Made by a program: the position numbers and the translations under genes. Source: Sulfobacillus thermotolerans (GTDB lineage Bacteria > Bacillota > Sulfobacillia > Sulfobacillales > Sulfobacillaceae). Taken from it: a DNA stretch of 64,000 nucleotides. Where the stretch lies: NCBI GenBank assembly GCA_002951815.1, contig CP019454.1, positions 3,235,837 through 3,299,836 of the forward strand. The letters are read 5' to 3'. Below are positions 23,700-55,004 of this stretch, one piece after another (position 1 is the first letter of the stretch; each line of letters begins with the position of its first letter). The notes under the pieces were generated by a model. The model did no database searches. It had not been told where the DNA came from and worked only from the letters and a program-made list of their open reading frames with translations.

Positions 23700-25667
23700 A
23701 TGGAAATTTGGATGATTACGCCCCGTTACTCCCTACACCTGTGGGATGAAGTCGGGCGCTTTAGTTACGATTGGGCGCACTATCAAGCTCGCCAAGGCCA
23801 TGTCGTGCGTGTTCTTACGCTGTATGCAGACGTATTGCCGGAAACGTTGCCGATTAAAGTCATTCCCTTAGTAGATAATCCCCTCACTTTTTTGGCAAGT
23901 TCGTCACGCAGAGCTTGGCACGTCGCGACCTATGTGCTCAACGCGGCAGAGCGCGGTGAAATTCCCGACGAAATTCATACCATTACAGATTGGGGTCTGG
24001 GTGCAATCGTTCTCCAGCATTATTGGACCTTGCATCGTCTGACCAAATCCCTAAGGTTTGTTACGATCCCGGTAGAGCCTCTCATTTTAACAGCGTATGA
24101 TAACACCTGGCCACGCTACCGTCTGGATTATTTTTGGGCTCAACAAATGGAGCAATGGGTCATAAAGGCCTCGCAGTCAATCCAAACGAACTCCCTAGCT
24201 ATGATAAAGGCTTTAGGCTCTCCTGCCCATGTTACGCCGCTTCCCACCATGAATGGCGACAACGTTCCGACGTTTTTCCCTCCTGAGCGGCTCGTGATGC
24301 TGGGGCCTGTTGCACCACTCACCCACATAGCCCTGTGGCTTGAAGCGCTGTCCCTCTTATGGGCTCAAGGGTTTTCCTTACCCCTGGAAATTTATGGACC
24401 TGACCGCCTTTACACCATGACGCAAAGGCCGTACCGGGAATACCTCACCGAGCGATTTTCGAAGGACGTGGAACGCGGCCACGTGCGCTTTTTATCCACC
24501 GCGACCCCGGTTCAGGTCCATCAGATGCACAACGCGCTTGTCCTTCACGGGGTCACGGCCCCCACGTTATCTTGGGGCTTGGCGACACTTGTTCGTCACA
24601 ACATTCCTGTGTTGGCGTTGACATCAGAACGCACACAAGAGCTTTTACCTCCCGAACAGCTCACGATGCCCATTGCGGCGGTTATGGCTGATGCCATTGC
24701 CGCACAATGCGCCAAGAATTCAGAACGGTATTCGCCCACCACACCGCATCCTATTGTTCTTGAGCCCGCGCGCGATTCAGATGATTCGATAGATATCTTC
24801 CCTTTTCTTCATCCCGTGGCCACCGTACCCACGGACGCTATCACGCGCTCAACGGGAACTTTATCCGTTGTCATTCCCTATTACAACGCGGGCCCGTTCA
24901 TCTTCGATGCCATTGACAGTGTGTTTCAGTCCCGACGCATCCCCGACCAAGTGATCATCATGGATGACGGCAGCACCGACCCAGGCAGTATTGCGGCGCT
25001 CTATGAGCTGGCTCATCGGTATCCCGCGGTGCAGGTCATTCACGCCCCTCATGGCGGCATTGTCACCACCCGAAACCGGGGAGCGAAACAGGCCAGCGGC
25101 GATATCCTGGCTTTTCTCGATGCGGATGACATGGTCACCCCTGACTACTTCGCCCGGTGCGTGGAGATCCTAGCCACCTACGCTAATGTTGACTTTGTCG
25201 GATCGTGGGTGGAATATTTCGGTGATACCACCGGCATCTGGGCGGGGTGGAATCCTGAGCCCCCTTATGTGCTCTATCATAATCTCATTAACAGCAGCGG
25301 CATTGTTGTGCGCCGTCCAGCTTTTCTTGCTGCGGGTCTCAATCACGAAGAAATGGATCAGGGACTCGAAGACTATGAGTCCATAATCCATTTGATTGCT
25401 GCAGGCTATCAGGGCGTGGTCATTCCCGAACCACTCTTTCGTTACCGCGTGCGCAGCACGTCGCGGTCGAAGACCAACCGCCATGACGAAAAGCTGATGG
25501 TGTTATATGACCGGATCCGCCGTCACTATCCCGCTGTTTATGCACGCTTTAGCGACGACTTGCTGGGCTTATTCAATGCCAATGGTCCACAATACCGCAT
25601 TGATTCTCCGCTCAATCCGCCTCACGACTTTATTGCAGATCAAGGCGACGGAGAAGCACACGCTTAG
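23700..25667 (+). CDS. Two-domain glycosyltransferase (GT4-like plus GT2)
   Basis: 655 residues. Residues 1-365 look like a GT-B glycosyltransferase (MEIWMITPRYSLHLWDEVG, later LVMLGPVAPLTHIALWLEAL) though the usual E-x7-E motif is not obvious. Residues 385-640 are GT2, GT-A fold: LSVVIPYYNAGPFIFDAIDS, VIIMDDGSTD and ILAFLDADDM, the last supplying the metal-binding DxD. It likely adds two sugars in a surface glycan. GAGGGG lies about ten bases before the ATG. Its 3' end overlaps by 38 bases the 3' end of the convergent gene at 25630-27738, which has the same two-domain plan. Confidence 0.85.
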   Translation: MEIWMITPRYSLHLWDEVGRFSYDWAHYQARQGHVVRVLTLYADVLPETLPIKVIPLVDNPLTFLASSSRRAWHVATYVLNAAERGEIPDEIHTITDWGLGAIVLQHYWTLHRLTKSLRFVTIPVEPLILTAYDNTWPRYRLDYFWAQQMEQWVIKASQSIQTNSLAMIKALGSPAHVTPLPTMNGDNVPTFFPPERLVMLGPVAPLTHIALWLEALSLLWAQGFSLPLEIYGPDRLYTMTQRPYREYLTERFSKDVERGHVRFLSTATPVQVHQMHNALVLHGVTAPTLSWGLATLVRHNIPVLALTSERTQELLPPEQLTMPIAAVMADAIAAQCAKNSERYSPTTPHPIVLEPARDSDDSIDIFPFLHPVATVPTDAITRSTGTLSVVIPYYNAGPFIFDAIDSVFQSRRIPDQVIIMDDGSTDPGSIAALYELAHRYPAVQVIHAPHGGIVTTRNRGAKQASGDILAFLDADDMVTPDYFARCVEILATYANVDFVGSWVEYFGDTTGIWAGWNPEPPYVLYHNLINSSGIVVRRPAFLAAGLNHEEMDQGLEDYESIIHLIAAGYQGVVIPEPLFRYRVRSTSRSKTNRHDEKLMVLYDRIRRHYPAVYARFSDDLLGLFNANGPQYRIDSPLNPPHDFIADQGDGEAHA

Positions 25668-27738
25668 CCCATCGCCGAACAGGACGCCGAATGAACCCCG
25701 GCACGCCCCGAGACAAAAACACGATCAAACGCACAGGCTTGGAATTGAGCGTAATGCGTCTAATCCATTCGCGGTGACTTTCTTGCGCCCCATTGCCCCC
25801 GCCCATGTCCCGGTATTGCAACACCTCTTTCTCCAACACGAAGTAGGCCGCAGGCCCGAGCACGTCTTGATGTTTAGTCCACATTTGTCGCTGGATTTTG
25901 CGCCGGTGGATTTGCGACGTGGTCCGCACCATCGAGTCGGCACGCACTCGGTAATGGTAATGGGGATACGGCACCACTTCGCCTCGGTCCCCAGCTTTGG
26001 CCAACCGCAAGAGAAACTCCCAGTCTTCCCACCCATATTTAAACGCCTCATCATAGCCGCCGAGCGCAAAAAACCGGTTCCGGCGAATGACGATGCCCGC
26101 ATGGGCTTGATTCTGAGCTAAAAGTGTGGGGGCGTGAAGATCCTGGGGTGCCCAATAGCCGGCAGCGCCTTCAAAATATTCAATGATAGGGTACACCACG
26201 GTGAGCTCAGGATTTTTCTGCAACGCCTGCACACTGTGGTGCAAGGTGGCCGGATCCAACAAATCATCGGCGTCACAAAACGCCAAAAGCTGTCCCTGTG
26301 CCTTTTTGGCCCCATAATTGCGCGCCCCAGGCAGTCCGCTATTTTCTTTATGAAATACCCGGACCTGGTCGTGAGCTTGACCTAGTTGATCCAACATCTG
26401 GGCAAATTCTTGATCGGTTGACCCGTCATCGACCAAGATAATCTCAAAGTGAGGATATTGTTGCGCTAATAAACTGTCCACCGTCTCTTTAATCGTCGCG
26501 GCTGCATTGTAGCACGGCACCACGATGCTAACCAGCGGACCTGGTTGGCTAGAGGATGAACCATCATCCTTGGGACCCATGGTGCGGATAAAGTCTTCCA
26601 CGTTACCCACCGTGCGTGCATCAGCCCACCTAGCATACGCGTCGCGGGCTCTTTGACCTAATGCTAGACGCTGGGCGGGGTCATCGAGAAGTGACATTAA
26701 GGCCTCACTAAAGGCGTTCATATCGAGCGGATCTATTACCAGACCGGCCCCTTGAGCCAACATCTCCCGCATTCCCCCATATTGGCTGGCAATAATGGGT
26801 TTGGCCAAAGACATCGCTTCGAGGCAGACATTGGGCCAATTTTCAAACCGGCTGGGAAAGACGACGACGTCGGCGGTTTGGTACTCCGTGACAAGGTGTG
26901 CGCGGGACACCGGACCGACAAATTCGAAATGGTCCTGCCACTTTTGCGGGATCATTCCCATCAAATAAGCACGGTAAGATTGATCATGCCATGTGGTATC
27001 TCCGCCAATTAGACGCACGGTCATTTGGCGGCCCGACTCCAACACCGCCAGCGCGCTTTGAATAAGCAAATCGACGCCTTTTCGGTGCTCCAAACGCCCC
27101 ACGTACAACACCCTTGGGGTCGAAGAAGAAATGGGTTCGAGTCGGGGCGTGTCAAATACGGGGACGGGATGGCGCTTCAGCTCATAGTCCCTTGGAACAA
27201 ATTGTTGATATTGCTGCCCCAAGTCCTCACAGGGAACTGTCACAACATCCGCATAGCGCAAGCAATATTGTTCGATATTATAAATAGCTTGACGCTGCAG
27301 AGACAAATTTTCTTCATTGAGTATATCGCAGAATTCCAACGTCATATGGCCATGCACTAACAACGTGGTCTCGGCAAATTCACCCAGCAGGCGTTTGGCC
27401 TTAATGGTGTAATAACCCTCACCATGGTAATCAGGAAACTCGACAATATCGATCGGCTCTTTGGCAACCATCGCTTTAAGCTGCCTATAAACCGCATAGG
27501 CATGTCCATGGGCGGCGGTACGAAATCCCTCTACCGGCCGAATCGGAATAATCTGGTAGGGACGTTCGGGCGGTAGAGCAATTTCCGGACTGTCGGGCAG
27601 AAATTTTGCGGCCGTGATGACTTGGACTTTGTGTCCATGACGCACGAGATGTCGAGCCACTGCATCTGTATAGACCCCAATGCCTCCCGACACGTTGTAG
27701 CCAGTCAGTTCGCGACTGGAAATAATAATATTCTTCAT
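25630..27738 (-). CDS. Two-domain glycosyltransferase (GT4 plus GT2)
   Basis: 702 residues. Residues 1-400 are GT4: ELTGYNVSGGIGVYTDAVAR at the start with the glycine loop, RVLYVGRLEHRKGVDLLIQS, and an intact E-x7-E in SRFENWPNVCLEAMSLAKP. Residues 430-690 are GT2: LVSIVVPCYNAAATIKETVD, EIILVDDGSTD, LLAFCDADDLL. The frame is open to 27930, but the ATG at 27738 matches the GT4 start and has AAGGA about 12 bases upstream. It is convergent with a similar gene, overlapping by 38 bases, and divergent from the secreted protein gene at 27925. Probably cytoplasmic, acting on a lipid-linked or protein-linked glycan. Confidence 0.9.
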   Translation of the reverse strand: MKNIIISSRELTGYNVSGGIGVYTDAVARHLVRHGHKVQVITAAKFLPDSPEIALPPERPYQIIPIRPVEGFRTAAHGHAYAVYRQLKAMVAKEPIDIVEFPDYHGEGYYTIKAKRLLGEFAETTLLVHGHMTLEFCDILNEENLSLQRQAIYNIEQYCLRYADVVTVPCEDLGQQYQQFVPRDYELKRHPVPVFDTPRLEPISSSTPRVLYVGRLEHRKGVDLLIQSALAVLESGRQMTVRLIGGDTTWHDQSYRAYLMGMIPQKWQDHFEFVGPVSRAHLVTEYQTADVVVFPSRFENWPNVCLEAMSLAKPIIASQYGGMREMLAQGAGLVIDPLDMNAFSEALMSLLDDPAQRLALGQRARDAYARWADARTVGNVEDFIRTMGPKDDGSSSSQPGPLVSIVVPCYNAAATIKETVDSLLAQQYPHFEIILVDDGSTDQEFAQMLDQLGQAHDQVRVFHKENSGLPGARNYGAKKAQGQLLAFCDADDLLDPATLHHSVQALQKNPELTVVYPIIEYFEGAAGYWAPQDLHAPTLLAQNQAHAGIVIRRNRFFALGGYDEAFKYGWEDWEFLLRLAKAGDRGEVVPYPHYHYRVRADSMVRTTSQIHRRKIQRQMWTKHQDVLGPAAYFVLEKEVLQYRDMGGGNGAQESHREWIRRITLNSKPVRLIVFLSRGVPGFIRRPVRRWAKRVLLRRLDLQ

Positions 27739-27924
27739 CCGAGCGAGGCATCCTTTTTTGTCGAAAATGGCTTCATTACCGAGTATACTCGATGCCGTCT
27801 TGGCAGAACAACCACATATGCCGCCAATATTCTCGCTACCCTGCCAGTGGATGCAGGAAGTCGTAAGATATTTGGTGAATTTAGGAAGAGCAAATCTGAA
27901 ATTAAAGCGAGGGATCAAGACCTT

Positions 27925-28974
27925 ATGCAAACCCCATGGCGCGCAAGCGCGGCCATTTTGGGCGTGCTAGCATTGTCCACGGCCATTCAGGCCCCCTTGG
28001 CCGATGCTACCACACCCGTTGCCGCCACGACTGTGCCGGTGGCTTTATATGCGACCACCCCACAAGTCCGCACTGGCCAAAGCGTCACCTTAATGGCAGC
28101 AACCCCGTCGCCGCTGACAACGGGTGAATCCCTATCGATTGTCAACCTCACGACAGGGCAAACGATTAATACCGTGACATCGGGATCGTCGGTCAGCACA
28201 ACGATTTTGCACCATCAACCGCAAACGGACCAATATGCTGCTATCCTCACCCGACAGACGCACCCCATCGCGGTGACGTGGGTTGTGCGGGCGATTGGCA
28301 ACAACGCCGGCTACGAAAATGCCGCAGGCCAGTCCGTGACCTTAACCGCCCCTGCGCAAGGCACCCCACAGCAAGCCTTTACGGTCATAGCCAACCCCAC
28401 CGGATTTCATCACCCGGTCTATCAATTTTGGTGGGCCATGCAGGGCGGACAATGGCATTCCAGTGGAGCCTTCAGCAACCAGAATACCGAAACCATTACC
28501 CCACCACGCGCAGGGTTCCTGTCAGTTCTGGTCTATGCTCGGTCCCAAAGCGCCCCCACGGGCGAATCCGCTGATCAGGAAGCCATCTATGAAGCCAAAT
28601 CCGATACCGCAGTCGTCGACGTCGGGAATGCTTCCGCGACGCAGACGACAACGCCCACGTCTTCGAATAACTGGGTAGGCATGGAAATGCCTAACCAAGT
28701 CGCGGTGGGCGACAACATCACCTTGACAGCTACCGCAAGTTCAGGCATCATCGATCCCCTTTACCAATTCTGGTTTCAAGCACCTGGACAAGCCTGGCAG
28801 AGCAGTGGCGTGTACACTGCCAGCAACACCTTTACCATTCCAGCAACCAGCCCAGGGATTTGGCACGTCGTCGTCTATGCGAAACCCCTGACGGCGCCAG
28901 ATAACGCCACAGCAGCCGAGCGGCAAGCCTTAGAAGTGGAAAGCCCGGTATCCTCCATTACGGTTCACCCGTAA
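27925..28974 (+). CDS. Secreted protein with two Y-x-W-type repeat modules
   Basis: 349 residues with a signal peptide (SAAILGVLALSTAIQAPLADA) and a Thr/Ala-rich region. Two modules of about 95 residues end the protein; each contains YQFWW or YQFWF, then GQWHSSGAF or QAWQSSGVY, then VLVYARS or VVVYAKP. The same module occurs twice near the N-terminus of the 1004-residue protein at 48075-51089. It looks like a beta-sandwich akin to the triple-Tyr (Y_Y_Y) type. The frame is open further upstream, but the signal peptide fixes the start near 27925, with GAGG 12 bases before it. Likely cell-wall or sheath component; function unknown. Confidence 0.8.
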   Translation: MQTPWRASAAILGVLALSTAIQAPLADATTPVAATTVPVALYATTPQVRTGQSVTLMAATPSPLTTGESLSIVNLTTGQTINTVTSGSSVSTTILHHQPQTDQYAAILTRQTHPIAVTWVVRAIGNNAGYENAAGQSVTLTAPAQGTPQQAFTVIANPTGFHHPVYQFWWAMQGGQWHSSGAFSNQNTETITPPRAGFLSVLVYARSQSAPTGESADQEAIYEAKSDTAVVDVGNASATQTTTPTSSNNWVGMEMPNQVAVGDNITLTATASSGIIDPLYQFWFQAPGQAWQSSGVYTASNTFTIPATSPGIWHVVVYAKPLTAPDNATAAERQALEVESPVSSITVHP

Positions 28975-30390: not shown

Positions 30391-31528
30391 GCAAATTAAT
30401 CGCCGCATTGATGTCGCGGTCGTGGTGTGTGTGACATTCTGGGCACGTCCACTCCCGCATAGCGAGCGGCATTTTCGGCATTTTGTATCCACACGCGGAA
30501 CACGTTTTGCTGCTCGGATACCAACGGCTCACGATGACCACCGTTTTCCCGCATTGGGCCGCTTTGTATGCGAGTTGCCGACGGAATTCCCCAAAGCCCA
30601 TATCAGCAATCGCCCGGGCGAGAGGATGATTTTTGAGCATCCCGGCGACGTTCAGGTCCTCGATGGCAATGACATCGAAGCGCTGCACGAGATCGGTGGT
30701 CAGTTAGTGTAACGCATCCGCCCGGATATTCGCAATCCGCGCATGGAGTCGGGCCATGCGCCGCTGCGTCTTTCGCATATTCTGGGACAAGGGCATGGGC
30801 ATCCCTTTCGGGGTGGGCTGGCCGGGCTGAAGCCCGGCGCGGACTTTGGCGACTTCCATCTGGCGACTGAATTGTTTCGATAACCGCCGAAGCTGTGCCA
30901 AGGCGTCCGCATAGGCTTTCGGTCCCACGATCTTCTCTCCGGTCGAGAGCGTCGCCAACGCCGACACGCCCAAATCCACGCCGACTACCGCTTGGCTTTC
31001 GCGGCGGACACTGGGGGGATCGGGAAGTTCGACGGTGACGCTCAAAAACCAGCGATCAGCGATCCGCGACACGGTGCCTGCTACCACTGTGCCGATAAAT
31101 CGCAACGGTTCGTGCATGCGCACCCAGCCTAATTTGGGAATATGCACTTTTTGCCCTTTGACCGTGAATGGGTCGTTGGTGAGCGTAAAGCTGTCGTGTC
31201 GGCCCTTTTTCTTAAACGTGGGATACTCGGCGATCCCCGCAAAGAAATTCTTGAACGCTTGACCCAAGTGCATAATCGCCATCTGGGGGGCGTTCTTGGT
31301 AACCTCCAGCATCCAGGGGAAGGCGGCGCGCTTGAGTGCATTGAGTTGACGCCGCAGAGCGGCTTCGGTCGGCTTGGGCAACGTAGGATCGGCTTTCCAT
31401 GCGTCGAACTGTTGTTGCCACTGATCCAAGGCCCAATTGTACGCGAAACGGGCCGTCCCGGCGGCCTTGCGGAAATGCGTCTCTTGAACGTTATTCGGGT
31501 CGAGCGCAATCTTATGGGTCAGAATCAT
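30341..31528 (-). pseudogene. tnpB: TnpB RNA-guided nuclease, copy A, with premature stop
   Basis: Nearly identical to the intact 395-residue TnpB at 62410-63597, but codon 275 is TAA instead of CAA (stop at 30704-30706). The product of 274 residues keeps the first RuvC Asp (GVDLGVS) but loses the RuvC Glu (AIEDLN), the four-Cys zinc finger and the last RuvC Asp, so it cannot cut. The rest of the frame remains open to 30341. The start overlaps tnpA by ATGA. It is presumably recently inactivated, as few other differences are seen. Confidence 0.9.
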
Positions 31529-32154
31529 GATGACGCCTCCTCCACGGCGTGTTTCACGCCGTCGAGCAATTTTTGGTTCTTGCGGGAGCGGCTGCCGTAG
31601 AGCCGAGCCGAAAACACGGTGATTATTTCGAGGACGTCTTGAGCCAGCTCTTCCTCAAAGGTCGTGTCCTCGCCTTGATTGAGAATCACCACCTCCACCT
31701 GCTTGGCTTCGCAGATCGCAAAGACGAGCTCCGCCCCAAAGCGCACGAGACGGTCCTTATGGGTCACAACCAGCCGACCGACCCGGTCGGCGAGGATGTC
31801 ATTTAAGAGGCGCTTGAGACCCTTTTTGTGATAATTCATCCCGGATCCGAGATCCGCCACGACCTCAAAGGTCCACCCTTGACGGGCACAATAGATCTCC
31901 AGCACTTGCTTTTGCCACTCCAGATCGTCTTTCTGGTCGTGGCTCGATACGCGGGCATAGGCGACGGTTTTGCGAGGCGGGCTGCGTCGGTGAAACTGGT
32001 CAGGTCGCAACCGGGCCAAGTCGTAACGCCGATACCCACCCGCTGTGCGTTCATCGGGCAACAACGTTCCTTCGTGTTCCCATCGACGTAACGTCGATGG
32101 GGTCACACCTAAAAATTCCGCCGCTTCACGAATGCCGACAAGTTTTCTATGCAT
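31525..32154 (-). CDS. tnpA: IS607-family serine recombinase TnpA, copy A
   Basis: 209 residues: MerR-like HTH at the N-terminus (GIREAAEFLGVTPSTLRRWE, then AGGYRRYDLARL) and a small serine recombinase domain with the nucleophile in VAYARVSSHDQ and the segment KDRLVRFG. It catalyses transposition of the element. I chose MHRKL at 32154 because the HTH follows at once; the open frame adds five residues to 32169. The promoter lies in the 56 bases to the element end, where TATAAT-like TTGTATAATTTAGG is visible on the reverse strand. All catalytic motifs are present, so this copy may still move, or mobilise copy B. Confidence 0.92.
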   Translation of the reverse strand: MHRKLVGIREAAEFLGVTPSTLRRWEHEGTLLPDERTAGGYRRYDLARLRPDQFHRRSPPRKTVAYARVSSHDQKDDLEWQKQVLEIYCARQGWTFEVVADLGSGMNYHKKGLKRLLNDILADRVGRLVVTHKDRLVRFGAELVFAICEAKQVEVVILNQGEDTTFEEELAQDVLEIITVFSARLYGSRSRKNQKLLDGVKHAVEEASS

Positions 32155-32212
32155 ACCTAAATTATACAATAATGGGTAACCATAGGTAAACTTTTAGCAA
32201 ACTGTTAAAACC

Positions 32213-36803: not shown

Positions 36804-37170
36804 TCATACGTCTAGCCGCTCCGCAACGTCATACGCAGCGACTTGCCACCACCTCACTGGCAATGTACATGGGACGCACGCACCTTCCTTTCAAGGAACA
36901 TGAAGAACACTCTCTTTGAACACAAATCCCACTTTATGGAATACTAGCTGTTTTTTGATTCCATATTTGTAAAAAGAGTATCAGAATACACGCCGGGATT
37001 GTTCGCTCATTGGTAGCTCCTTTATACTAGGTGTTGCGAGGGAATTATTTCCAAGCACAGCATCGACCTCTTAATAACACGAAGAAGCCTTCCGCATCGC
37101 GACCTCAAATTCTATGCTCCACGATGCCGACCTTCTACTCCGTGAAAGAAAAAAGGAGGCTAATCTCGGG
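36804..37170. other. Upstream region of the YVTN propeller gene
   Basis: No gene seen. A-rich purine tract with AGGAGG just before 37171 is the ribosome binding site; a promoter should lie between 36960 and 37060, where the sequence is AT-rich. Confidence 0.35.
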
Positions 37171-38625
37171 ATGTTTTTGACCCATTCAAAATCCCCCAAA
37201 GCACCGCCCCGGCGGTTGCTGATCCGCACGTTTGTACTGACCGCTACACTCGCCGGTGGTCTCATCGCGGGTCCCGCCATGTCGGTCGAGGCCGCCACAC
37301 TGCCGAGCATTACCGTCGGATCGGATCCGTATGATGTGGCGGTGAATACTGCCAATGGCGATGTGTACGTGACCAACCAAGACTCCAACACTGTGTCGGT
37401 GATTAACGCCGCGACGAATCAAGTCGTCAACACCCTCCCGATCGGCACCGACCCCACATACCTCGGCACCAATCCGACCAATGGCGACGTTTATGTGGCT
37501 AATAACAACTCGGGGACGGTCTCTGTGATTAATGAGGCGAATCAAGTGGCCGATACCATTGCGGTCGGGAATACGCCCAGCGGGATAGCCGTCGACGTGA
37601 ATACCGGCAACATCTATGTCTCCCAGTGGTCCCCGGGCACAGTCACCGTCATTGATGGCGCCACCAACACGGTGTCCCAAACCATCACGGTCGGGGGCCA
37701 GCCCTTTACGCCCGTCTTCGATCCCGCCAACGGGAATCTCTATGTGCCCTGTTGGTCGACGAGTGCGGTGGACGTCATTAATAGCCGCACCAATCAGGTC
37801 GTCCAAAGTATCCCCGTGGGCTCGGGGCCTAATTATGCGACGGTCGATCCCGCCAACGGCGATGTGTACATCGCCAACTGGGAATCGAACACGGTCTCCG
37901 TCATTAATGGCGCGACGAATAGCGTCGTCGCCACGATTGAAGTTGGCACCCATCCCCGCGCGATTGCGGTCAATCCTCTCAATGGCAACCTCTATGTGAC
38001 CAACAATGGCAGCGATACGGTCTCGGTGATTGACGGCACCACCAACACGGTAATCCAGACGATCGGTGCTGGCGCGAGTCCGGCAGGGATCGCGGCGGAC
38101 TCGGCGCACGGGACAGTCTATATTGTGGATTCCGGCTCGAACACCGTGTCGATGATTCTGCCGCCGCCCGCGCACTGGGTTCCTCCCGTCTTGACGCCAG
38201 AACCGGTGACGATAGGCCCAGTGAGTAGCCAAGCCATCGGCAATCTCGGGTTCAACCCGGTAGGCGCCATTCAAAACGGGAGCTACATGGGCTACGTGGA
38301 AGAACGCGCGGCGTTAATGGCGGGGGCCTCATTCACGGGCGAAGGCACGGATTCGAGTTATCTCTCGGCGATTTTGGATGGATCGGGCGTGGGGCAACAA
38401 CACCAGGTTTCTGCCGTGCAACAAGGGCAGTTTGCGGCCCTCTATCAAAAACTGGGAATCATCCCCACATGGACCAATAATACGGTTTCGATTGCCCAAG
38501 GAGTTACCGCCCTGCGAAAAGCGCACGCGCCGACATTGGCCGTCGAGAACTATCTGGTGCAATTTGGCGGCTATTCCTGGCCTGTTGCGCAGCAACAGGC
38601 GGCTCTGAACTTCCCCGGAAGTTAA
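37171..38625 (+). CDS. Secreted YVTN-type beta-propeller with a novel C-terminal domain
   Basis: 484 residues. A basic N-terminus and hydrophobic core end at a VEAATLPS-like cleavage site, so it is exported. Residues about 45-330 are seven YVTN repeats of about 42 residues (for example NGDVYVTNQDSNTVSVINAA), which form a beta-propeller like those of surface-layer and quinoprotein-related proteins. From residue 335 a Pro-rich hinge (HWVPPVLTPEP) leads into a 150-residue domain that is also the end of the protein at 44405-45742, where the propeller is of another type. I do not recognise that domain. AGGAGG lies 11 bases before the ATG. Probably a surface adhesin or ligand-binding protein. Confidence 0.85.
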   Translation: MFLTHSKSPKAPPRRLLIRTFVLTATLAGGLIAGPAMSVEAATLPSITVGSDPYDVAVNTANGDVYVTNQDSNTVSVINAATNQVVNTLPIGTDPTYLGTNPTNGDVYVANNNSGTVSVINEANQVADTIAVGNTPSGIAVDVNTGNIYVSQWSPGTVTVIDGATNTVSQTITVGGQPFTPVFDPANGNLYVPCWSTSAVDVINSRTNQVVQSIPVGSGPNYATVDPANGDVYIANWESNTVSVINGATNSVVATIEVGTHPRAIAVNPLNGNLYVTNNGSDTVSVIDGTTNTVIQTIGAGASPAGIAADSAHGTVYIVDSGSNTVSMILPPPAHWVPPVLTPEPVTIGPVSSQAIGNLGFNPVGAIQNGSYMGYVEERAALMAGASFTGEGTDSSYLSAILDGSGVGQQHQVSAVQQGQFAALYQKLGIIPTWTNNTVSIAQGVTALRKAHAPTLAVENYLVQFGGYSWPVAQQQAALNFPGS

Positions 38626-42413: not shown

Positions 42414-42920
42414 CATTCTTTCACCCTGACCCGCTTCTTCACACGCTTGGAGCATTAGAACCGGACTACGACGAGGCCTTTTCGGGTCTGCAGCGGCTTG
42501 AATTACCTTGTAATGACCCCCCTTGTGAATCAACAAAGCGTATCCCTTGGTGGAATTTTGACCCTTCGCAATGAATCCGGCAAAGCGCTATTTATCTGAT
42601 GAAAGGCCACGACATGGACGTATCAGTCCACTCACTCCCAAGCACGCTTTGACATCGCCCATGGGGCTTTCGTCGTGGGACAGCACCTCACGCGCTTAAA
42701 CTTCGAGAACTTCGAGAGCTCCCCCTCGTCTGCCATAAGCAACACCCGCATGGGGTTCCTAGATTATGACGTCTCGAATTAGGGAATCCCCTCTTGCCAA
42801 CGCTGCGAGGTATTCCTCTGATGAGGAAATGGATGAATCGGGATAAACCCTTCGCTATTTTCATCCTGATTTTGGTAATATGATAGCGTTTCGAGATCAA
42901 CTGTCCGAGGAGTGGACACC
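42414..42920. other. Intergenic stretch before the NERD gene
   Basis: No gene supported. A short direct repeat AACTTCGAGA occurs near 42705. The promoter of the NERD gene probably lies at 42850-42900. Confidence 0.35.
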
Positions 42921-43862
42921 GTGGCCAGAATCTATACACAGTCTCCTGACTTAAAAAGAGAATTCTTAAAACGAATACAAGAGAAAATGGATAGGCACGA
43001 ACAAGATGTCAAGAACCGCATGACGGCGCAAACACCACATTTTCTTCATTGGGCACTCAAACCCTTAGTCACCAAAATGGTACGAAGCAAACAACATCGC
43101 GATGCGCACCAGGGAGCGCATGGTGAATTTTCGGTGGGACTCTGGCTACGAGCTCGCCTGCCTAACACTTGGGCCATCATTAACGATGTTGTTCTCGAAT
43201 ATCAAATGGATGAGTATGCGCAAATTGATCACATCGTCATAGGACCGGCCGGGGTATTTCTGTTGGAGACAAAAGCTTGGGATGGAGCAATTTTGCTGAA
43301 GAAGGACCAGAGTTTTCGTAAAGAGGGCGGAAAGTGGGTTAAAGCGTCCAGTCCCATTAGACAAAACAAGACGCATCAGCGGCGTTTTCAACAGTGGTAT
43401 ACCCTTCACCATTTACCCAAACCGATTCCACCCATTGAGCCCATAGTCGTGTTCTCTCACGCCACGTGGCTTGCTGTCGATGAATGTTCCATGAAAGTTT
43501 TGACGCCGCGGCAAACCGCCTCCTATCTCTCTAAACAATCGAGCACCCTATTAGATGATGTCACCATAGAGCGTATCGTAGGCGCCATTCTCGCTCCTCC
43601 CATCTCCCCTTTGAAGGAGTTCTCAAAAGAGCAGCCACCTATATCGTCATCTAATGCCGATAGAAGGGAAGCCCCTGCACGTCAACAACCTGAAAACACC
43701 GTGAGCATCCGCGAAGGAACCACCCGGCGTGGAAGAAAATATGTTCGGATTCGTGGTTCTTACGAAGAGGCGGAAAATATATGGAGACAATATGGAAAAC
43801 CCGGACGATTAAATAAGGATCAATTCGAGTCGGACACGTTTTTCTTTTATCGCGATGAATAG
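42921..43862 (+). CDS. NERD domain protein (nuclease-related)
   Basis: 313 residues. After a helical N-terminus, residues about 65-185 form a NERD domain: GAHGEFSVGLWLRARL, then AQIDHIVIGPAGVFLLETKA, which carries the D-x(n)-E-x-K core of the PD-(D/E)XK-like nuclease fold. The middle is polar and disordered (SSSNADRREAPARQQPEN), and the C-terminus (RGSYEEAENIWRQYGKPGRL) is a small separate segment. The GTG at 42921 has GAGGAG eight bases upstream; a GTG at 42912 overlaps that site. NERD proteins are linked to DNA processing, but targets are unproven. No partner helicase or methylase is next to it. Confidence 0.85.
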   Translation: MARIYTQSPDLKREFLKRIQEKMDRHEQDVKNRMTAQTPHFLHWALKPLVTKMVRSKQHRDAHQGAHGEFSVGLWLRARLPNTWAIINDVVLEYQMDEYAQIDHIVIGPAGVFLLETKAWDGAILLKKDQSFRKEGGKWVKASSPIRQNKTHQRRFQQWYTLHHLPKPIPPIEPIVVFSHATWLAVDECSMKVLTPRQTASYLSKQSSTLLDDVTIERIVGAILAPPISPLKEFSKEQPPISSSNADRREAPARQQPENTVSIREGTTRRGRKYVRIRGSYEEAENIWRQYGKPGRLNKDQFESDTFFFYRDE

Positions 43863-44404: not shown

Positions 44405-45742
44405 TTACTGGACTTGATTAGAAATCCCAAATTGCGCTTGGCTCTCAGCCACGGGCCAAGAGTATCCCCCCATCTGAACCAGATAATTGGCGATTGCTAG
44501 ACTTGGGGCATGCGCTTTGATTAAGGAGCTCACGCCTTGGCCGATATTCACCGTATTATTGGTCCATGTTGGAATTATGCCCAACTTTTGATAGAGTGCA
44601 GCAAATTGACCTTGCTCTTTTGCAGTCACAGGGGAATCATAAAGAGCCACACCCGAACCATCTAAGATGGAGGAGAGGTACGCCGAATTTGTTCCTTCAC
44701 CCGCAAATGTGGCCCCTGCTTCAATGGCCGCTCGCTCCTCAATATATCCGGCATAAGAGCCATTCCCCACGGCTACAGCGGGGTTAAAGCCAAGATCGCC
44801 AATAACCTGACCATTGACATGGCCGACCGTAACCGGTTCTGGGGTCAATACCGGCGGCGTCCAGTGTGGCACAGCGGGCGGATATTCTGAGATCGTGTTA
44901 TTCGCGAAATTCGATACATAAATAGCCCCCGTACTACTGACGGCAATGCCTTCGGGATAATTGACAAGCTGCCCGTCAGCGAGGTTCGTCCAGGTATTGC
45001 TCCCATACGGCAATTCCTCAACCGCAGTCGTGTTGTGATTAAAGTAGGTTACAAAAATGTCGCCGGACCCATTCACGGCCACATCATTGGGATAAATAGG
45101 CGCCGACGTCGGAGCAATGTCTTTCCACGTACTGCTGCCATTAACCAATTCCACGATACCATCTGAACCGGTATCACTGTTATTCACCACAAACAGATCG
45201 CCCTGGGCATTAATCGCAATGCCTTGGGGCATATTGAAAGGTCCGGAAATAGTGTGCCACTCGTTGCTTCCGCTGGGGAGTTCCACGACCGTATTGTTCC
45301 CGTTATTTGCTACGTAAATGTCGCCATGACTATCGACGGCAATACCCCATGGGTTATCAAACGGTCCCGATATCGTTTTCCATGTGGTGGATCCTTGGGG
45401 TAATTCTACGACTGTATTGTTCCCCTCGTTCGTTACAAAGAGGTCTCCATTTCCATCAACTGTGACGTCAGCAGGAGACTCAAACGGTCCTGAAATCGTT
45501 TTCCATGTGGTGCTGCCGCTGGGAAGTTCTTCTACGCTTTGGCTGCCGCTGTTGACAACAAAGAGATCTCCATGGCTGTCAACCGCCATCCCTAGAGGCC
45601 CGTTAAATGCCCCGTTATTGGTCACATTGACCCAATTAGTGGTTGCGGCATAGACATTCTTCCCGTGTTGAATCCCCATCACCGTGAGCACTGTAGCTGA
45701 AACTACGATTCCAGCTACTCGCATTGATTTCCGCATCCTCAT
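44405..45742 (-). CDS. Secreted NHL-like beta-propeller with the shared C-terminal domain
   Basis: 445 residues. Signal peptide (MRVAGIVVSATVLTVMGIQH, cleavage near VYAA). Residues about 35-290 are six to seven NHL/SBBP-like repeats of about 40 residues with the pattern GIAVDSHGDIYVANNGNNTV then ELPSGS and WKTISGPF. At residue 293 the hinge HWTPPVLTPEP starts the same 150-residue C-terminal domain as in the protein at 37171-38625, with long identical runs such as GQFAALYQKLGIIPTWTNNT. The propellers of the two are unlike, so this is domain sharing, not simple duplication. GAGGGG lies nine bases before the first ATG. Surface binding protein by inference. Confidence 0.85.
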   Translation of the reverse strand: MRMRKSMRVAGIVVSATVLTVMGIQHGKNVYAATTNWVNVTNNGAFNGPLGMAVDSHGDLFVVNSGSQSVEELPSGSTTWKTISGPFESPADVTVDGNGDLFVTNEGNNTVVELPQGSTTWKTISGPFDNPWGIAVDSHGDIYVANNGNNTVVELPSGSNEWHTISGPFNMPQGIAINAQGDLFVVNNSDTGSDGIVELVNGSSTWKDIAPTSAPIYPNDVAVNGSGDIFVTYFNHNTTAVEELPYGSNTWTNLADGQLVNYPEGIAVSSTGAIYVSNFANNTISEYPPAVPHWTPPVLTPEPVTVGHVNGQVIGDLGFNPAVAVGNGSYAGYIEERAAIEAGATFAGEGTNSAYLSSILDGSGVALYDSPVTAKEQGQFAALYQKLGIIPTWTNNTVNIGQGVSSLIKAHAPSLAIANYLVQMGGYSWPVAESQAQFGISNQVQ

Positions 45743-46485: not shown

Positions 46486-47967
46486 TTATTTTACCGGTTT
46501 AATGCCTTGAGGGGGTAACTTAAATGGCTCTTGGAGGATCCGCTCTGCCTCTATTCGCAGGCGATTTAACTGCTGCTGTACACCAGCATGATCTGGTTTA
46601 ACTCGTGCTGCTCCGGAATACTTTTGCCATGCTTCGTGCAACCGACCTTGCATTTTTAGCGCATCGGCCTCAACTACGGGCGCAAGGAACATAGGTATTT
46701 CTGGACTAAAGGAGACAAGTCCCCGATACGTCGGCGCTACTGCCTGCGCTTGCCTTGCGCTCTCAACGGCTCTATTTATCCTCTCGTCGGCCTGCAAGAG
46801 GGCAACCTGTGCCTGCCAATACCACCCAGAGGGATGTTGAGGGTCAGAAGCAACAGCTCTTTCAGCAACGACCCGTGCCTCATCGAGGCGCTTGAGCCGC
46901 ACGAGGGCTTCACATAGTACCGCGCGCACCTCAACGATACGACCGTACGTTTTGTCATTCATTGCATTGGCTTCTGCGCGGTATAATGCATCAACGGCCT
47001 CTTCGACCTTTCCGGAAATAAATAAATCACGTCCCAGAAATCCCCACGCTGCAGCGTTGTTCGGTTCGTCTTTTGTCCACTCCCGCAACAACCGAATGTT
47101 TCGCGCGTACTTATCGCGTTGCACCATAACATCTCGTTCGTAACCCCAATGATCCACCCGAATCCGCGCAACACCCCGTTGCATAGGTTGGGGCCCATTT
47201 AGAAAACCAATTTGTTCGTGAATCCGTCCCAACCAACTAAGTCCACGACCCAGGGGATACATTCGGGTCGTATCGTAATTGGGCTCAATTCTCTCTCCCA
47301 AATGATTGACCTGGACAAAGCGCAGTAACATGGGCGGATCCCATTTATCGTATAGCCCCGCGACAATACGGGGGACATGCACATCTTCTACATTGAGAAA
47401 TTCATCCGCATCAACCCATAATACCCAACCTGTATCTCCAAGAACTTGATCAGCGGCTCTGCGAGCTGCACCAAAATCATTTTGCCATTCGACTTCGATG
47501 ACGGTCGCACCCGCCCCTCGAGCAATCGCCACCGTATCGTCGGTCGAACCTGTATCTACAACCACAACGTCATCGACCGCAGGTTTCAGTGCCTCAATAC
47601 ATCGTTGAATTTGACTGGCCTCATTTTTAGCCAAAATTGCACCCATAACGCGAACAGGTGGCACCTCTAACAACTGGCTTACCCAGGGAGTAATCGGGTC
47701 ATCCTCATGTCCTCTCAGCCGTTCAAAAACACGAGGTGCCCACGCTGCCGGTGGGTCCAGTATCCACCCACGATCGTAACAGGCCCATGCACTCCCATAG
47801 TCATCTATGTGTTCAAGTGCCTCACCAAGGAATACCCATGCCTGTGCGTCAGTAGGTACTTTCTCCAGTTGCGGCCTTATGACGTCAATGGCATCTTGCC
47901 AATGTTTAGCACGTAACGCGGTTTCTGCTAGAACACGCCATGGGCTATCGGATGTTGCTACGGACAT
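46486..47967 (-). CDS. GT2 glycosyltransferase with TPR repeats
   Basis: 493 residues. Residues 10-75 hold a TPR pair (DAQAWVFLGEALEHIDDYGS), 105-330 a GT2 domain (VMGAILAKNEASQIQRCIEA, VVVVDTGSTDDTVAIARGAG, VLWVDADEFL with the DxD), and 320-480 further TPR units (AWGFLGRDLFISGKVEEAVD; PSGWYWQAQVALLQADERIN). This plan is found in protein or peptide glycosyltransferases such as the SunS group and other TPR-GT2 enzymes. AGGAGG lies seven bases before the ATG. It is directly downstream of the large surface protein gene, separated by a terminator, so glycosylation of that protein is an attractive but unproven idea. Confidence 0.85.
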   Translation of the reverse strand: MSVATSDSPWRVLAETALRAKHWQDAIDVIRPQLEKVPTDAQAWVFLGEALEHIDDYGSAWACYDRGWILDPPAAWAPRVFERLRGHEDDPITPWVSQLLEVPPVRVMGAILAKNEASQIQRCIEALKPAVDDVVVVDTGSTDDTVAIARGAGATVIEVEWQNDFGAARRAADQVLGDTGWVLWVDADEFLNVEDVHVPRIVAGLYDKWDPPMLLRFVQVNHLGERIEPNYDTTRMYPLGRGLSWLGRIHEQIGFLNGPQPMQRGVARIRVDHWGYERDVMVQRDKYARNIRLLREWTKDEPNNAAAWGFLGRDLFISGKVEEAVDALYRAEANAMNDKTYGRIVEVRAVLCEALVRLKRLDEARVVAERAVASDPQHPSGWYWQAQVALLQADERINRAVESARQAQAVAPTYRGLVSFSPEIPMFLAPVVEADALKMQGRLHEAWQKYSGAARVKPDHAGVQQQLNRLRIEAERILQEPFKLPPQGIKPVK

Positions 47968-48074: not shown

Positions 48075-51000
48075 TTATGGTTGTTGCATCAGAACTGGGT
48101 ACACCACAGTCGGCCCGTTAGTCGTTAGCGATACCTTTGTGTTGACCACAAAGGACTGGGATGGCGCGACTGTCCACGTTCCACTGCTGTTTTCGGTAGC
48201 AATCGCCACGTATGCGGAATCCGTTGTAACGCTGTTACCGTCATACGCACCGCTGTTTACAGCCATTTCTACCGTGCTACCGCTATAGGGGCTCGTAATC
48301 GTGACACCCACGTAATCGGTGCTCGCTGCGGCACCTGTACCTGGAGTTTCGTCAAGAGCCACGTAATATGCGCTACCAGCAACTTCCCACACAGCTACAG
48401 TTGCTGTAGTGACAACGCCTGACGAATTGGAAATTGTCACACTAGGCTCAATAACTGGGGTGAGCACAGTAAATTCACCCGTAGCTTGATTATAGGTTGC
48501 AAAGTCTGTAACACTCGCAGCGTAGTCTGCGGTTACAGCTTTACCGTTTACCGTTACTGCTGCAGTGTCACCACTTACGTTTCCAGCGCCCGACTCATTA
48601 GCTGCTGACATGGTCGAAGATGCCAATGGTTGCACATCGACTGTAAAGCTGACTGGCGCCACGCTCGGATCGCTCGTGTCTGTTACGGTGACGGTTGCTG
48701 TGCCGGCTGTGCCACCCACTACTTCAAACGAAACCGTCTCAGCCCCACTAATAGACAAGGTCGTTCCCGACTGAATAACTCCAGAATTTGTCGCAAGCAC
48801 AACATCGCCGTTGGAAGTAGACACGTTCAGATTGTCGGTTGCCTCCGAAACACCAGCTTGGATGGCATTTTCTTCAGTAATGGTCGCAGTAGCACTGGAC
48901 AATCCCGGTAACGTCAGTGTCGTGCCTGAGTAACTGTTCGCGGTGGGTCCAACAACAGAAAGCCCCAGTTCCGCCACAGTGGCTGCAGGAGAGGTAACAG
49001 TAGCCGTTACCGCACTAGTCGGCTCGGTTAAGCTAGGCGAAATGGTCGCTGACACGGTGTAGGTTCCAGCACTCGTAGCCGCATCAACGGTGACAGACGC
49101 AGCGCCACTGGCATTGGTCAATTCCGTCAAAGTCGTAGCTCCGTTGGCAAACGTTCCACTACCGGTTATGGTAAAGGTAACAACCGCGTTAGCATCAGCC
49201 ACAGCATTGCCTACGCTGTCCTCGACTTGGGCCGTGTAGGTCGCGCTCTTACCTTCCGCAATGCTCTCCGTACCGGTAACGGCCAACTGATATGCAGGGC
49301 CCGTTACAAACATGTAGCTGGTTGACGCAGTAGTCGATAACGGCGCATTTGTGGCGACGTTTGCCACGTCCCCACTTTCTGCAGTGAGGGTCAACGTTGC
49401 CGGAGAGGCCTGTGTTGTCGTATTGACAACAGTAAATGTCGCCGTTGTATCATTGGTAGCTACCGTAACTGCAACGGTATCTCCTGTTTGAGGGATGAGT
49501 GTTGCGGAAGTGCCATTTACGACATATGCCATTCCGGTCGTAGCATTGTCTGTTAGATAGAAAGTTTCTGCTGACGGTGCGGTTACGGCCTGACCAGCCG
49601 CGTCCTCAAGCGTTACCGTGTACGTCGTTTCCGTCGTGCCTGAAGCCAGCGTAAAAGAGCTTGATGAGCTTACAGTGTAAGTCGTCGCGGCGCTTAGCGT
49701 TCCTGTGGTTGAGGAGACACCCAATTGAGCGGCTTGGCCTACGCCAACAGCTTCAATGGTGGTCGTACCCGTCGCGAGATTCTGGGCGGACGCCATTATG
49801 CCAATGCTACCCGCCACATCTGGTTCACTGTATACAGTAAACGAAGCTGGAGCCCCGTCTCCAACGAATTCAGTCGTTGAGGACGCCCCTCCCGAGAGAG
49901 TCCCGGCCCCTACAACATCAGCCGTTACCGCATAAAAGGTAGATGTGACGCCCGTTGGCAAGGGGTTGCCCGCTTGGTCGCCTAGGGTAATCGTGACGGT
50001 GTCTGATGTCGAGGTATTGTTAGGAACGGTGGAGGTTGCTGCACTAACCAACAACTCCGTAGCAACCGGGGACACGGTTGTCACCGTAACAGAACCGTAG
50101 CTCACAACACTTGCAGTCGATTCACCGGAATTCGCCACTAATCCACTTGTTGTGATGCTTTCGGAACCAATCAATGAAGTGGATGCTGTCACCGTAACGG
50201 CTGCTGTTCCATTCGTGATGGTTAACGTCGTCGTGTCTGACCCATTCGCGAAGGTCATTCCCGACGGCGCTGTCAAGGTAACGGTTCCATTGAAATTCCC
50301 CACTGTATTGCCGTTGTTGTCCACAACCATAGCAGTAATGGTATCGCTAGCCGCGCCGTCAGCTACCAAACTGGAGGACGTTGCTGAGAGTTTAACCGCT
50401 GCTGCCTGACCAAAAGCATCAAACGTAGCCTTGGAGTACTCGGAAAAGGCCGCGGTTTGAGGAGCATTTAAGTCCTTGGCATACAACACCGCGTGGTAAT
50501 CACCAGCTAGCGCGGCGGTAACTTGGAAGGTTGGAGAGCTCTGGTAGTCTCCGCTAGCAAACCAGTTGCCATCCGGGCTTTGAATCCACAACTGGTATAC
50601 CGGATCCGTCAAATTCTTGGAGCTGGCGGTAAACGTAAGGGTTGTGCCGGGCGCCACATTGGTCAATGTCGGAGCCGTCAAGGTTGCACTCGAATCTACG
50701 TTGACGAATTGATTGCTGTTGGTGCCTTCAGAGTTGGCCGGAATCGCTTGGCCCTTGTCTTTAGCATACACAACCACTTCGTAACTTCCTTGTTTTAGTG
50801 GGGGCAAGGAGAAGGAATTGCTGGTTGACCAGCTGGTTGAATGCCAGTTTCCATTGACGCCCTCATACCAGAACTGGTATAGAGGTGTACCCGTTCCACT
50901 CTGAACCGCAGTGGCCGTGAAGCTGACGGTGTTTCCAACAGCTACGGTGCCTTGTTCAGAGCTCAGAGTTACACTAACAACAGCCGGAGCAGTTGCTGCA

Positions 51001-51089
51001 AAGGCGCTGGCAGCAGGAATCATAGACATTAACAACATGGCTGATCCCAGCGTTAAGCTACCGGCTTTTCTCGAAATATTCTTTGCCAA
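48075..51089 (-). CDS. Large secreted Ig-like surface protein (S-layer or adhesin type)
   Basis: 1004 residues from a TTG with GGAGGG nine bases upstream. A signal peptide (SLTLGSAMLLMSMIPAASAFA) is followed by two Y-x-W modules (YQFWYEGVNGNWHSTS and YQLWIQSPDGNWFASG, each ending VVYAKD- or VLYAKD-like) shared with the protein at 27925-28974. Then come at least four Big_1/invasin-like domains rich in Thr/Val/Ala (for example GAASDTITAMVVDNNGNTVG and GKSATYTAQVEDSVGNAVAD). There is no sortase motif, SLH domain or membrane anchor at the C-terminus. Very low Lys/Arg content suits acid-exposed surface proteins. An S-layer or sheath protein is the best guess. Confidence 0.82.
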   Translation of the reverse strand: MAKNISRKAGSLTLGSAMLLMSMIPAASAFAATAPAVVSVTLSSEQGTVAVGNTVSFTATAVQSGTGTPLYQFWYEGVNGNWHSTSWSTSNSFSLPPLKQGSYEVVVYAKDKGQAIPANSEGTNSNQFVNVDSSATLTAPTLTNVAPGTTLTFTASSKNLTDPVYQLWIQSPDGNWFASGDYQSSPTFQVTAALAGDYHAVLYAKDLNAPQTAAFSEYSKATFDAFGQAAAVKLSATSSSLVADGAASDTITAMVVDNNGNTVGNFNGTVTLTAPSGMTFANGSDTTTLTITNGTAAVTVTASTSLIGSESITTSGLVANSGESTASVVSYGSVTVTTVSPVATELLVSAATSTVPNNTSTSDTVTITLGDQAGNPLPTGVTSTFYAVTADVVGAGTLSGGASSTTEFVGDGAPASFTVYSEPDVAGSIGIMASAQNLATGTTTIEAVGVGQAAQLGVSSTTGTLSAATTYTVSSSSSFTLASGTTETTYTVTLEDAAGQAVTAPSAETFYLTDNATTGMAYVVNGTSATLIPQTGDTVAVTVATNDTTATFTVVNTTTQASPATLTLTAESGDVANVATNAPLSTTASTSYMFVTGPAYQLAVTGTESIAEGKSATYTAQVEDSVGNAVADANAVVTFTITGSGTFANGATTLTELTNASGAASVTVDAATSAGTYTVSATISPSLTEPTSAVTATVTSPAATVAELGLSVVGPTANSYSGTTLTLPGLSSATATITEENAIQAGVSEATDNLNVSTSNGDVVLATNSGVIQSGTTLSISGAETVSFEVVGGTAGTATVTVTDTSDPSVAPVSFTVDVQPLASSTMSAANESGAGNVSGDTAAVTVNGKAVTADYAASVTDFATYNQATGEFTVLTPVIEPSVTISNSSGVVTTATVAVWEVAGSAYYVALDETPGTGAAASTDYVGVTITSPYSGSTVEMAVNSGAYDGNSVTTDSAYVAIATENSSGTWTVAPSQSFVVNTKVSLTTNGPTVVYPVLMQQP

Positions 51090-51760: not shown

Positions 51761-54001
51761 TTAAGGGCTTGGGCGTGTCCGAGCATGAAAGACCCAAGGC
51801 TTTGGTACGTCGTGCGCTTTCAGCCGCTTCCCATCTGAGATCAACGTAAATGTCACACCCAGCGACAGAGGAATTTCTTTGATTGTAAAGGGCCCTAAGG
51901 CTTGTGGAGGATTGGCCCAGGCATGAATTTTATGCTGCAAGGCATCAATCTCAAGGCCTAAGAGTGTTTGCATAAGATGAAAAGGCGCGGCGGACGCCCA
52001 TGCTTGCGGTGCACACGCCTCAGGGTAAGGTACAGGAGCCACACCCTGTTCCCCGGCAAACAGTTCGGGCAGTCGGTACCAGGGAAAATGCTCAGCGGCT
52101 TGCATGAGCGCCAGAGCTAGGGTTTCAGATTCCTTAGCTGCTCCGGCCTTTAGCAGTCCCGCAGCAATAAGACTTGTGTCATGCGGCCAGACGCTTCCGC
52201 GGTGATAGCTGTAGGGATCATAGGCACTCTGACCGGCCGCCAAGGTCCGAATTCCCCATCCCGAGAACAGGTCGGGAGCGAGTAAGCGCTGTGCCACCGC
52301 ACGCCTCTTGGTGCGTGGTACTATGCCGGCCCATAGGCATTGTCCGGGATCAGAGGTCACCGCATCCAGCAACCGGCCATTCCCGTCCACCGCCAACCCA
52401 TAAAACAGCTGATCTGGCAGCCAAAAGAGCGCATCAAATTGCCTTTGCAGTTTTTTCGCTCTTTTCTCCAAGTCGCGTGCCCAGTCATCTTGTCCCTGGA
52501 CGTGGTAATAATCGGCCATGGCCCGAAAGGCGCGGTATACATAGCCTTGGACCTCCGCCACTGCGAGTGGCGGGGACGCGTGCTCACCATCCGCAAAAAC
52601 CATCGAATCCGCGGAGTCTTTCCATGACTGCACCGCAAGACCTTGGGCGGAGCGCGGGGTAAAACTTAGAAGTCCTAAACGGTTGCGGTCTTGAGCCCGC
52701 AGCAAATAATCCAGCGCCGCTTGGGCCGCAGGCTTCATCGTATTCATCAGCGCATCGTCACCCGTACGCCGCCAGGTTTCTACAAGGAGAATCAAAAAAA
52801 GCGGAGTGACGTCCACAGAGCCGTAATAACGCGCAAACGGCACGTCATGAGTCCGGGCCATCTCCCCGAACCGCACTTCATGCACCATTTTCCCAAGCTC
52901 TTCCTCCCGTTCGGGGTCATCTTGGTGTCCTTGCCATGCCGCGAGCGTATGAAGAGTGTGATACGCGTAAGAGGGATTCCACGCCAACATTTGATAGGAC
53001 GCAATCACCGCATCACGGCCAAAGAATGTGCCAAACCAGGGAATGCCCGCCATGGGCACCAGGCCCTGACCATAATCGGTCGCCAGCATCTGCATATCAC
53101 TGCCAGCCCGGCTCATAACGTGTTGCCAGAGTTCGCGCTCAAAAGAAAACTGAGGAAAAGGGTCCGCACCCTGCTTTCGGCCCGTGGCAATTTCCGGCAC
53201 GGGATTGTGCCACGTGGTTTTCAGCACAATCTCTCCAGAAACCTCTTGCCCATCAATCATCCATTCCCACTGGCCTGCAGCATTGTTCTGGGCGGCGCGT
53301 GTTGATGCCATAGTCACCTGCCGGGCGATGCCGTCGCGTCCTTCATAGCGATACTGCGCTTGATAAGCATCTTGGTCCACCGTTTTATGCCCCACATGCC
53401 GCGGATCAGATCCGCGCAGTTCGAAGATATCGGTAAAATCTGCCGCAAAAGCCAAGGAGAGCCGCCACGGCTCGGGCGCGCCATAATGCTGCCATGCCCA
53501 GCGGTCTTCCATGCCCTCCGGGTAAAGCTGCCATGTTCGTTCGATTACCCGCGTCATACCCGCGTGTTGAAATACATACCGGGCGCGGAGTACATCCGTT
53601 GTCACGGTCATAGCCAAAGGCGCGGGCACTTCTCCACTGATGCGCCACTGGTAGGTTGAAACCATGCGGGTATCATAGAGATAGACCCCTTGGCGCAAGG
53701 AGGATGCTTCAATGCGCCCGGCCGTAGACAGCACCGCAAAGGCCGCCCCGGCCTTTAAAACCGGCTCCCCGGGATTGGTCCGCGGCGTCTGATAAAGAGC
53801 CGGCACGCCCGTCGATTCTCTGACCTTGAGGACGGGCCGTACGCGTTCGCAGAGCACCTCTTCCCCATGAATCCGGCAAATCAGCATCTCGGCCAAGCGC
53901 TCCCCCGCTTGCATCCCGTCATGCTCCACCGTGGTTAAAAAGCCCGCGTCAAAAGCCCCTGCTTCGCGCCCAAAACCCACAATCGACAATTGACGAGGCA
54001 C
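51761..54001 (-). CDS. Glycogen-debranching-type glycosidase, fused to LacI C-terminus
   Basis: The frame encodes 746 residues. About 1-65 are the end of a LacI regulator (RQLSIVGFGREAG, LTTVEHDGMQAGERLAEMLI, LKVRESTG). At about 80 a GDE_N-like beta domain begins (LKAGAAFAVLSTAGRIEASS, GVYLYDTRMVSTYQW), then an (alpha/alpha)6 catalytic domain from about 300: GIPWFGTFFGRDAVIASYQM, SWKDSADSM, YSYHRGSVWPHDTSLIAAGL, features of amylo-alpha-1,6-glucosidase/GH63-like enzymes. No Met or SD lies between the parts, so the enzyme is probably made as a C-terminal domain of the regulator. No signal peptide: cytoplasmic, acting on imported glucans. Confidence 0.8.
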   Translation of the reverse strand: MPRQLSIVGFGREAGAFDAGFLTTVEHDGMQAGERLAEMLICRIHGEEVLCERVRPVLKVRESTGVPALYQTPRTNPGEPVLKAGAAFAVLSTAGRIEASSLRQGVYLYDTRMVSTYQWRISGEVPAPLAMTVTTDVLRARYVFQHAGMTRVIERTWQLYPEGMEDRWAWQHYGAPEPWRLSLAFAADFTDIFELRGSDPRHVGHKTVDQDAYQAQYRYEGRDGIARQVTMASTRAAQNNAAGQWEWMIDGQEVSGEIVLKTTWHNPVPEIATGRKQGADPFPQFSFERELWQHVMSRAGSDMQMLATDYGQGLVPMAGIPWFGTFFGRDAVIASYQMLAWNPSYAYHTLHTLAAWQGHQDDPEREEELGKMVHEVRFGEMARTHDVPFARYYGSVDVTPLFLILLVETWRRTGDDALMNTMKPAAQAALDYLLRAQDRNRLGLLSFTPRSAQGLAVQSWKDSADSMVFADGEHASPPLAVAEVQGYVYRAFRAMADYYHVQGQDDWARDLEKRAKKLQRQFDALFWLPDQLFYGLAVDGNGRLLDAVTSDPGQCLWAGIVPRTKRRAVAQRLLAPDLFSGWGIRTLAAGQSAYDPYSYHRGSVWPHDTSLIAAGLLKAGAAKESETLALALMQAAEHFPWYRLPELFAGEQGVAPVPYPEACAPQAWASAAPFHLMQTLLGLEIDALQHKIHAWANPPQALGPFTIKEIPLSLGVTFTLISDGKRLKAHDVPKPWVFHARTRPSP

Positions 54002-54780: not shown

Positions 54781-55004
54781 ATATTTTCACCTCAGCACTT
54801 AATCGTTTCACTTAAACGATTGAATTATATGGAATATCGTGCCATAATACTAGAAGTTTTCTGTATTGCATACATAATCACGCAGAAAACAATCGCATTG
54901 GCAGGATTCTTTCGCCATCATACTGCCTTTCGGGTCATAGAATGACCAGGCGCCGCCGTTGCTTCTGACAACGCGCTGCCTACCAAAGGATAGGAGGATG
55001 CCCC
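54781..55004. promoter_or_regulatory. Divergent regulatory region of the glucan locus
   Basis: AATCGTTT at 54801-54808 and AAACGATT at 54814-54821 form an 8-bp inverted repeat with CG in each arm, the style of LacI-family operators, lying next to the regulator's ribosome binding site. A second inverted repeat, GTTTTCTG at 54856-54863 and CAGAAAAC at 54883-54890, lies towards the transport genes. Confidence 0.6.

Follow-up and report, generated by a model that had tools for sequence, protein, structure and literature searches.

The SLH domain (PF00395) is a common S-layer anchor, a modular unit attached terminally to extracellular heads of many kinds. A constant C-terminus on varied exported heads is also seen in LPXTG/sortase and PEP-CTERM tails, which are short and comprise a transmembrane stretch and a basic end. 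The C-terminal domain of SbsC (SbsC_C, PF18316) is extracellular and belongs to a surface protein of a Gram-positive bacterium, and DUF732 (PF05305) is an exported helical domain of mycobacteria and their phages. In the present study we examined a window of 64,000 nucleotides from the genome of Sulfobacillus thermotolerans (CP019454.1), in which two propeller proteins end in a common domain of about 150 residues, here called the tail. As a putative modular anchor on varied heads it resembles SLH, but neither the tail nor any of 34 Sulfobacillaceae genomes gave a PF00395 match (a control search was positive in 4 of 14 known genomes), and the absence of SLH from the family makes another anchor plausible. 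It shares with LPXTG/sortase and PEP-CTERM tails the constant C-terminal position behind varied exported heads, but is 150 residues long, predicted to be mostly helical, and lacks their transmembrane stretch and basic end. SbsC_C, the presumed extracellular setting of which would be the same, precedes the tail in two of the proteins that carry it but is a different domain, with no PF18316 match in the tail itself in tail-only scans.

The first tail copy (38173–38622, + strand, 150 residues) starts at an HWVPPVLTPEP hinge and forms the end of a YVTN propeller protein encoded by the frame at 37114–38625 (+), which measures 503 residues from its first ATG, a start at 37171 being more likely. The initial annotation had translated this tail correctly, and its placing of the hinge at residue 335 is true if translation begins at Met-20 of the frame (37171). 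It also reported a second copy at the end of an NHL-like protein, at 44405–44866; this copy exists, but it lies on the minus strand and spans 44408–44866 (153 residues), as the end of an NHL propeller protein of 445 residues encoded at 44405–45742 (−). The high similarity described between the two ends is real, with 104 of 144 residues identical in a BLASTP alignment (72%, E 1e-76), far above chance. The genome, a single contig of 3,317,203 bases, contains these two copies and no other. At the nucleotide level they are 64% identical, with saturated synonymous sites, indicating that the two tails are old. The annotation had named two outcomes that would undo its reading; a recent gene conversion limited to two paralogues is ruled out by the saturation, and relatives carry the tail as well, while the other, a clear hit to a described domain, did not occur in the profile searches reported below.

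Both proteins open with a hydrophobic segment that we regard as an export signal, judged by eye and hydropathy without a signal-peptide predictor. In the YVTN protein it occupies 37171–37293 (+) and ends in SVEA, followed by ATLPS; in the NHL protein it occupies 45647–45742 (−) and reads MRMRKSMRVAGIVVSATVLTVMG...VYA. The YVTN head (37297–38160, +) matches TIGR02276 (1.8e-65) and also NHL (2.5e-15), and its only orthologues within the family are in G026 and G025, both of which bear the tail. The NHL head (44876–45640, −) matches PF01436 (5.9e-30) and, at a threshold of E 1e-20, is matched in none of the 33 remaining family genomes. The two propellers had been called unlike and of different repeat types. 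The repeat types stand, but "unlike" is too strong for the window pair, given a weak mutual alignment (E 9e-9, about 30%) and the NHL match of the YVTN head; heads that are truly unlike occur in relatives.

The proposal that one constant tail is joined to different heads holds in these relatives, since across related genomes the tail follows YVTN and NHL propellers as well as non-propeller heads. YVTN heads with a tail occur in G026 and G025, and a remnant is present in G022:C37, where a decayed YVTN-tail gene (L045:240–850) holds an insert of ~150 bases with inverted ends inside the tail; a piece of the insert resembles what we take to be an ISAs1-type transposase. GLUG-like beta-helix heads are indicated by sub-threshold Pfam matches in G020, G022:C15 and G014:C11, and by similarity to G022:C15 in G014:C22. 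The tail protein of G014:C40 carries Ig repeats (He_PIG, 2e-33) and an SbsC_C match, that of G013 (940 residues) a sub-threshold GH5 cellulase match and S-layer SbsC_C domains, and that of G027:C115 a head consisting of a glycine-rich stretch, and G024:C65 is an almost headless frame of 226 residues. Heads are exchanged or lost and the tail is kept. In a tail tree with most forks unresolved, the window NHL tail groups with YVTN tails (support 90/92, drawn open), as would be expected if an NHL head had captured a tail of YVTN type.

An N-terminal hydrophobic segment was found in 12 of 16 tail-encoding frames examined, the remaining four being frameshifted or truncated. The tail is terminal in nearly all copies, G024:C65 being the single open frame with further residues (~20) beyond it. 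This position, behind a PP-rich hinge, would suit an export or maturation signal that is recognised and removed by a dedicated machine, as happens with T9SS or PEP-CTERM tails, and is absent from the mature protein. Against such a signal, the tail proteins already possess Sec-like N-termini, the tail is 150 residues long, folded in prediction and devoid of a hydrophobic or basic end (maximum 19-mer hydropathy 0.67–1.48 over the 16 frames, none with a transmembrane-like stretch), and no partner gene lies beside it. The organism is, moreover, described as Gram-positive, a trait of the genus Sulfobacillus and one stated in the literature for S. harzensis. We therefore regard a removed signal as improbable.

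Alignment of 15 tails (A1), which are 51–84% identical to the first, contains 23 columns without variation, which are most closely spaced between GEG-x-D/N-S-x-YL and FAALYQ-x-LGIIPTW. Cysteine is absent from 14 of the 15, and tail pI ranges from 4.05 to 5.39. Invariant or nearly invariant polar residues are E43, E44, R45, E57, S61, Y63, Y91, Q92, T99, N126 and Q130. Such residues (EER, GEG, YQ, NYLVQ) may suit an anchor, but equally well an enzyme or a ligand-binding domain with a substrate outside the cell, the heads then serving only to position the tail; the sub-threshold GH5 cellulase match in one tail protein speaks for this second possibility. An enzymatic or ligand-binding role is nevertheless unlikely in our estimation, as no enzyme family or fold was matched in the profile and fold searches described below, and the substitution of E57 by Q in G020 and of EER by EKW in G014:C39 is unlike the behaviour of a catalytic set.

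The tail is predicted to fold as an alpha-helical bundle preceded by a short beta-hairpin, based on the best AlphaFold2 model of the first copy (pLDDT 83.1, pTM 0.81; the other four models 57–69.5); the core of the second copy was modelled with a similar helix order at lower confidence (72.9, 0.71). The initial annotation knew no family name for the domain, and our profile searches gave it none, with no tail match above cut-off in Pfam, NCBIfam or PHROGs. DUF6162 and tRNA_Me_trans_C were each matched below threshold by 4 of 15 members and were set aside as chance. By sequence, no significant tail match was obtained in the PDB; a VopV chain (E 0.0015) was rejected because the match extended over a long protein with no stretch passing alone. 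Foldseek returned no PDB match at E 0.001 for either tail model, and among the folds listed by Foldseek or VIA, which define the scope of this comparison, the best VIA values were Z 3.1 (rmsd 3.9, 67 aligned) and 3.6 (rmsd 2.3, 46 aligned), the second model being of modest confidence. Viral fold models gave no significant match to the first tail model.

The insignificant viral matches did include phage proteins of the DUF732 family, and one of the 15 members matched PF05305 over residues 86–142 (E 0.03; 15.2 bits, below the cut-off of 22.4), so that the C-terminal half of the tail might be a distant DUF732, which is likewise exported and helical. The profile-profile probability assigned by hhalign was, however, 0.2% against 13 DUF732-type sequences, of phage origin or from a single plasmid, and the invariant cysteines of DUF732 are missing, 14 of 15 tails having none. 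Typha gp55 has a DUF732 Pfam match (3.4e-15), and FF47_60, a candidate DUF732 protein from the viral fold list, has no Pfam match. We rejected this kinship as most improbable.

A profile built from the 15 tails had matches in 16 of 34 Sulfobacillaceae genomes. At class level the same 16 were the only matches among 154 genomes (0 of 120 outside the family), and in a phylum sample of 398 genomes the single match was the window's own. When 84,980 species were scanned by pattern, 15 loci were recovered, with titles of Sulfobacillus or Bacillota MAGs, and the comparable contigs were those of family genomes matched by the profile; the scan depends on a pair of short motifs, and distant relatives would escape it. 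Viral, plasmid and phage sequences contained no tail match, and an origin in any of them was rejected. Judged by these searches, the tail domain is lineage-specific to Sulfobacillaceae.

Within the family many copies are damaged. In the family profile search, 15 of 37 match rows span at least 130 of 150 positions, and the others are fragments or copies that are frameshifted or lie at a contig edge, assembly errors being a possible cause in some cases; in G004, a genome of two contigs, the tail copy carries several lesions. The lack of a tail in 18 of 34 genomes, together with the many broken copies, indicates that the tail is no essential anchor. The lesions in G004, G022 and G029 are multiple or accompanied by an insert or deletion, and phase variation by frameshift was rejected because they are not single repeat-tract slips. 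In L048 and L049 (G018:C1 and G016:C44) the same 68-residue tail fragment is present with several common flanking ORFs, and as the two genomes are placed in different genera this reflects either transfer or a binning error.

The prevalence of fragments and frameshifts, the multiple lesions in G004, and the dispersal of copies with no common neighbours are what would be expected if the tail had no common function and were a C-terminal cassette, selfish or neutral, that duplication and recombination had spread and of which most copies were decaying. Relatives have, however, kept long open frames, and purifying selection on intact tails is strong across genera as estimated from codon substitutions, which makes a cassette unlikely. 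The tail also evolves more slowly than the head before it in the two comparisons possible for the window YVTN protein, with dN/dS estimates of 0.09 (tail) and 0.15 (head) against G026, and 0.06 and 0.12 against G025.

We propose that the tail is a lineage-specific, non-covalent surface-retention or assembly module of Sulfobacillaceae, and assign this reading a probability of roughly 0.5. Proteins exported by Sec would be kept non-covalently at the cell surface by the tail, which would bind a wall or surface component, or assemble with itself or with an S-layer-like lattice, and the heads (propellers, beta-helices, Ig repeats, glycosidase) would act outside. We infer the surface location, the binding and a partner molecule. 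The initial annotation had suggested cell-surface attachment, export or polymerisation as possible roles. Surface retention or assembly is favoured over the alternatives by indirect evidence, namely the export signals, the SbsC_C partners, the absence of SLH and the lack of a link to sortase. The 34 family genomes contain three SbsC_C stretches, all within two tail proteins. Sortase (PF04203) is found in 19 of the 34, some of which are incomplete, and does not track the tail, since 8 of the 16 genomes that carry the tail have it and so do 11 of the 18 that lack the tail. No LPXTG-like motif was detected in the tail alignment. The three sortase matches of S. thermotolerans itself were counted against the proposed anchor.

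No conserved neighbour gene that could be a partner or receptor emerged among 329 ORFs around tail loci. Of 29 tail loci, 5 have a large Y_Y_Y/Ig-like gene no more than 10 kb away, compared to 0.49 expected, in a test that was selected with the neighbourhood already in view, treats contigs as unbroken and rests on these five loci. The window has one such gene at 48075–51089 (−), encoding 1004 residues with Y_Y_Y and Ig-like matches; its family is present in 30 of 34 Sulfobacillaceae genomes, with up to 12 matches per genome, and may be a major surface-protein family.

Other genes of the window are recorded here as observations. Large glycosyltransferases are encoded around the two tail genes (25630–27930, −; 46486–47967, −), and glycosyltransferases are also near tails in G024, G004, G014 and G022. 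A NERD-domain protein (42912–43862, +) is encoded between the two tail genes and adjoins a 1042-residue frame that is RND pump-like by eye. A protein combining MerR and resolvase is encoded at 31525–32169 (−), presumably the pairing seen in IS607-type elements. The window and G027:C172 have a gene block in common (53938–57998; L034:1572–5686), beside which G027:C172 carries a transporter-permease match and an alpha-amylase gene, with a tail gene directly adjoining.

In a more far-reaching version of the proposal, the tail would found both a new fold and a non-covalent surface-display system specific to Sulfobacillaceae, by which these acidophiles shuffle propellers, beta-helices and enzymes onto one anchor that may belong to the little-characterised S-layer or mineral-contact matrix of Sulfobacillus; we consider this doubtful, if conceivable. 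Literature searches on Sulfobacillus returned nothing on the tail domain. The main text of the genome paper (PMC6803676) does not mention propeller, YVTN or S-layer, and PMC7409299 does not mention propeller, YVTN, NHL or S-layer. An S-layer has been reported on some Sulfobacillus (PMC4378227).

How proteins are retained on the surface of Sulfobacillus, a bacterium used in bioleaching, is poorly known at very low pH. If the tail is a private anchor, it would provide a handle on Sulfobacillus surface proteins and a tool for acid surface display. If it is no anchor, it would still represent a clean, undescribed domain family in which heads turn over and the tail is kept.
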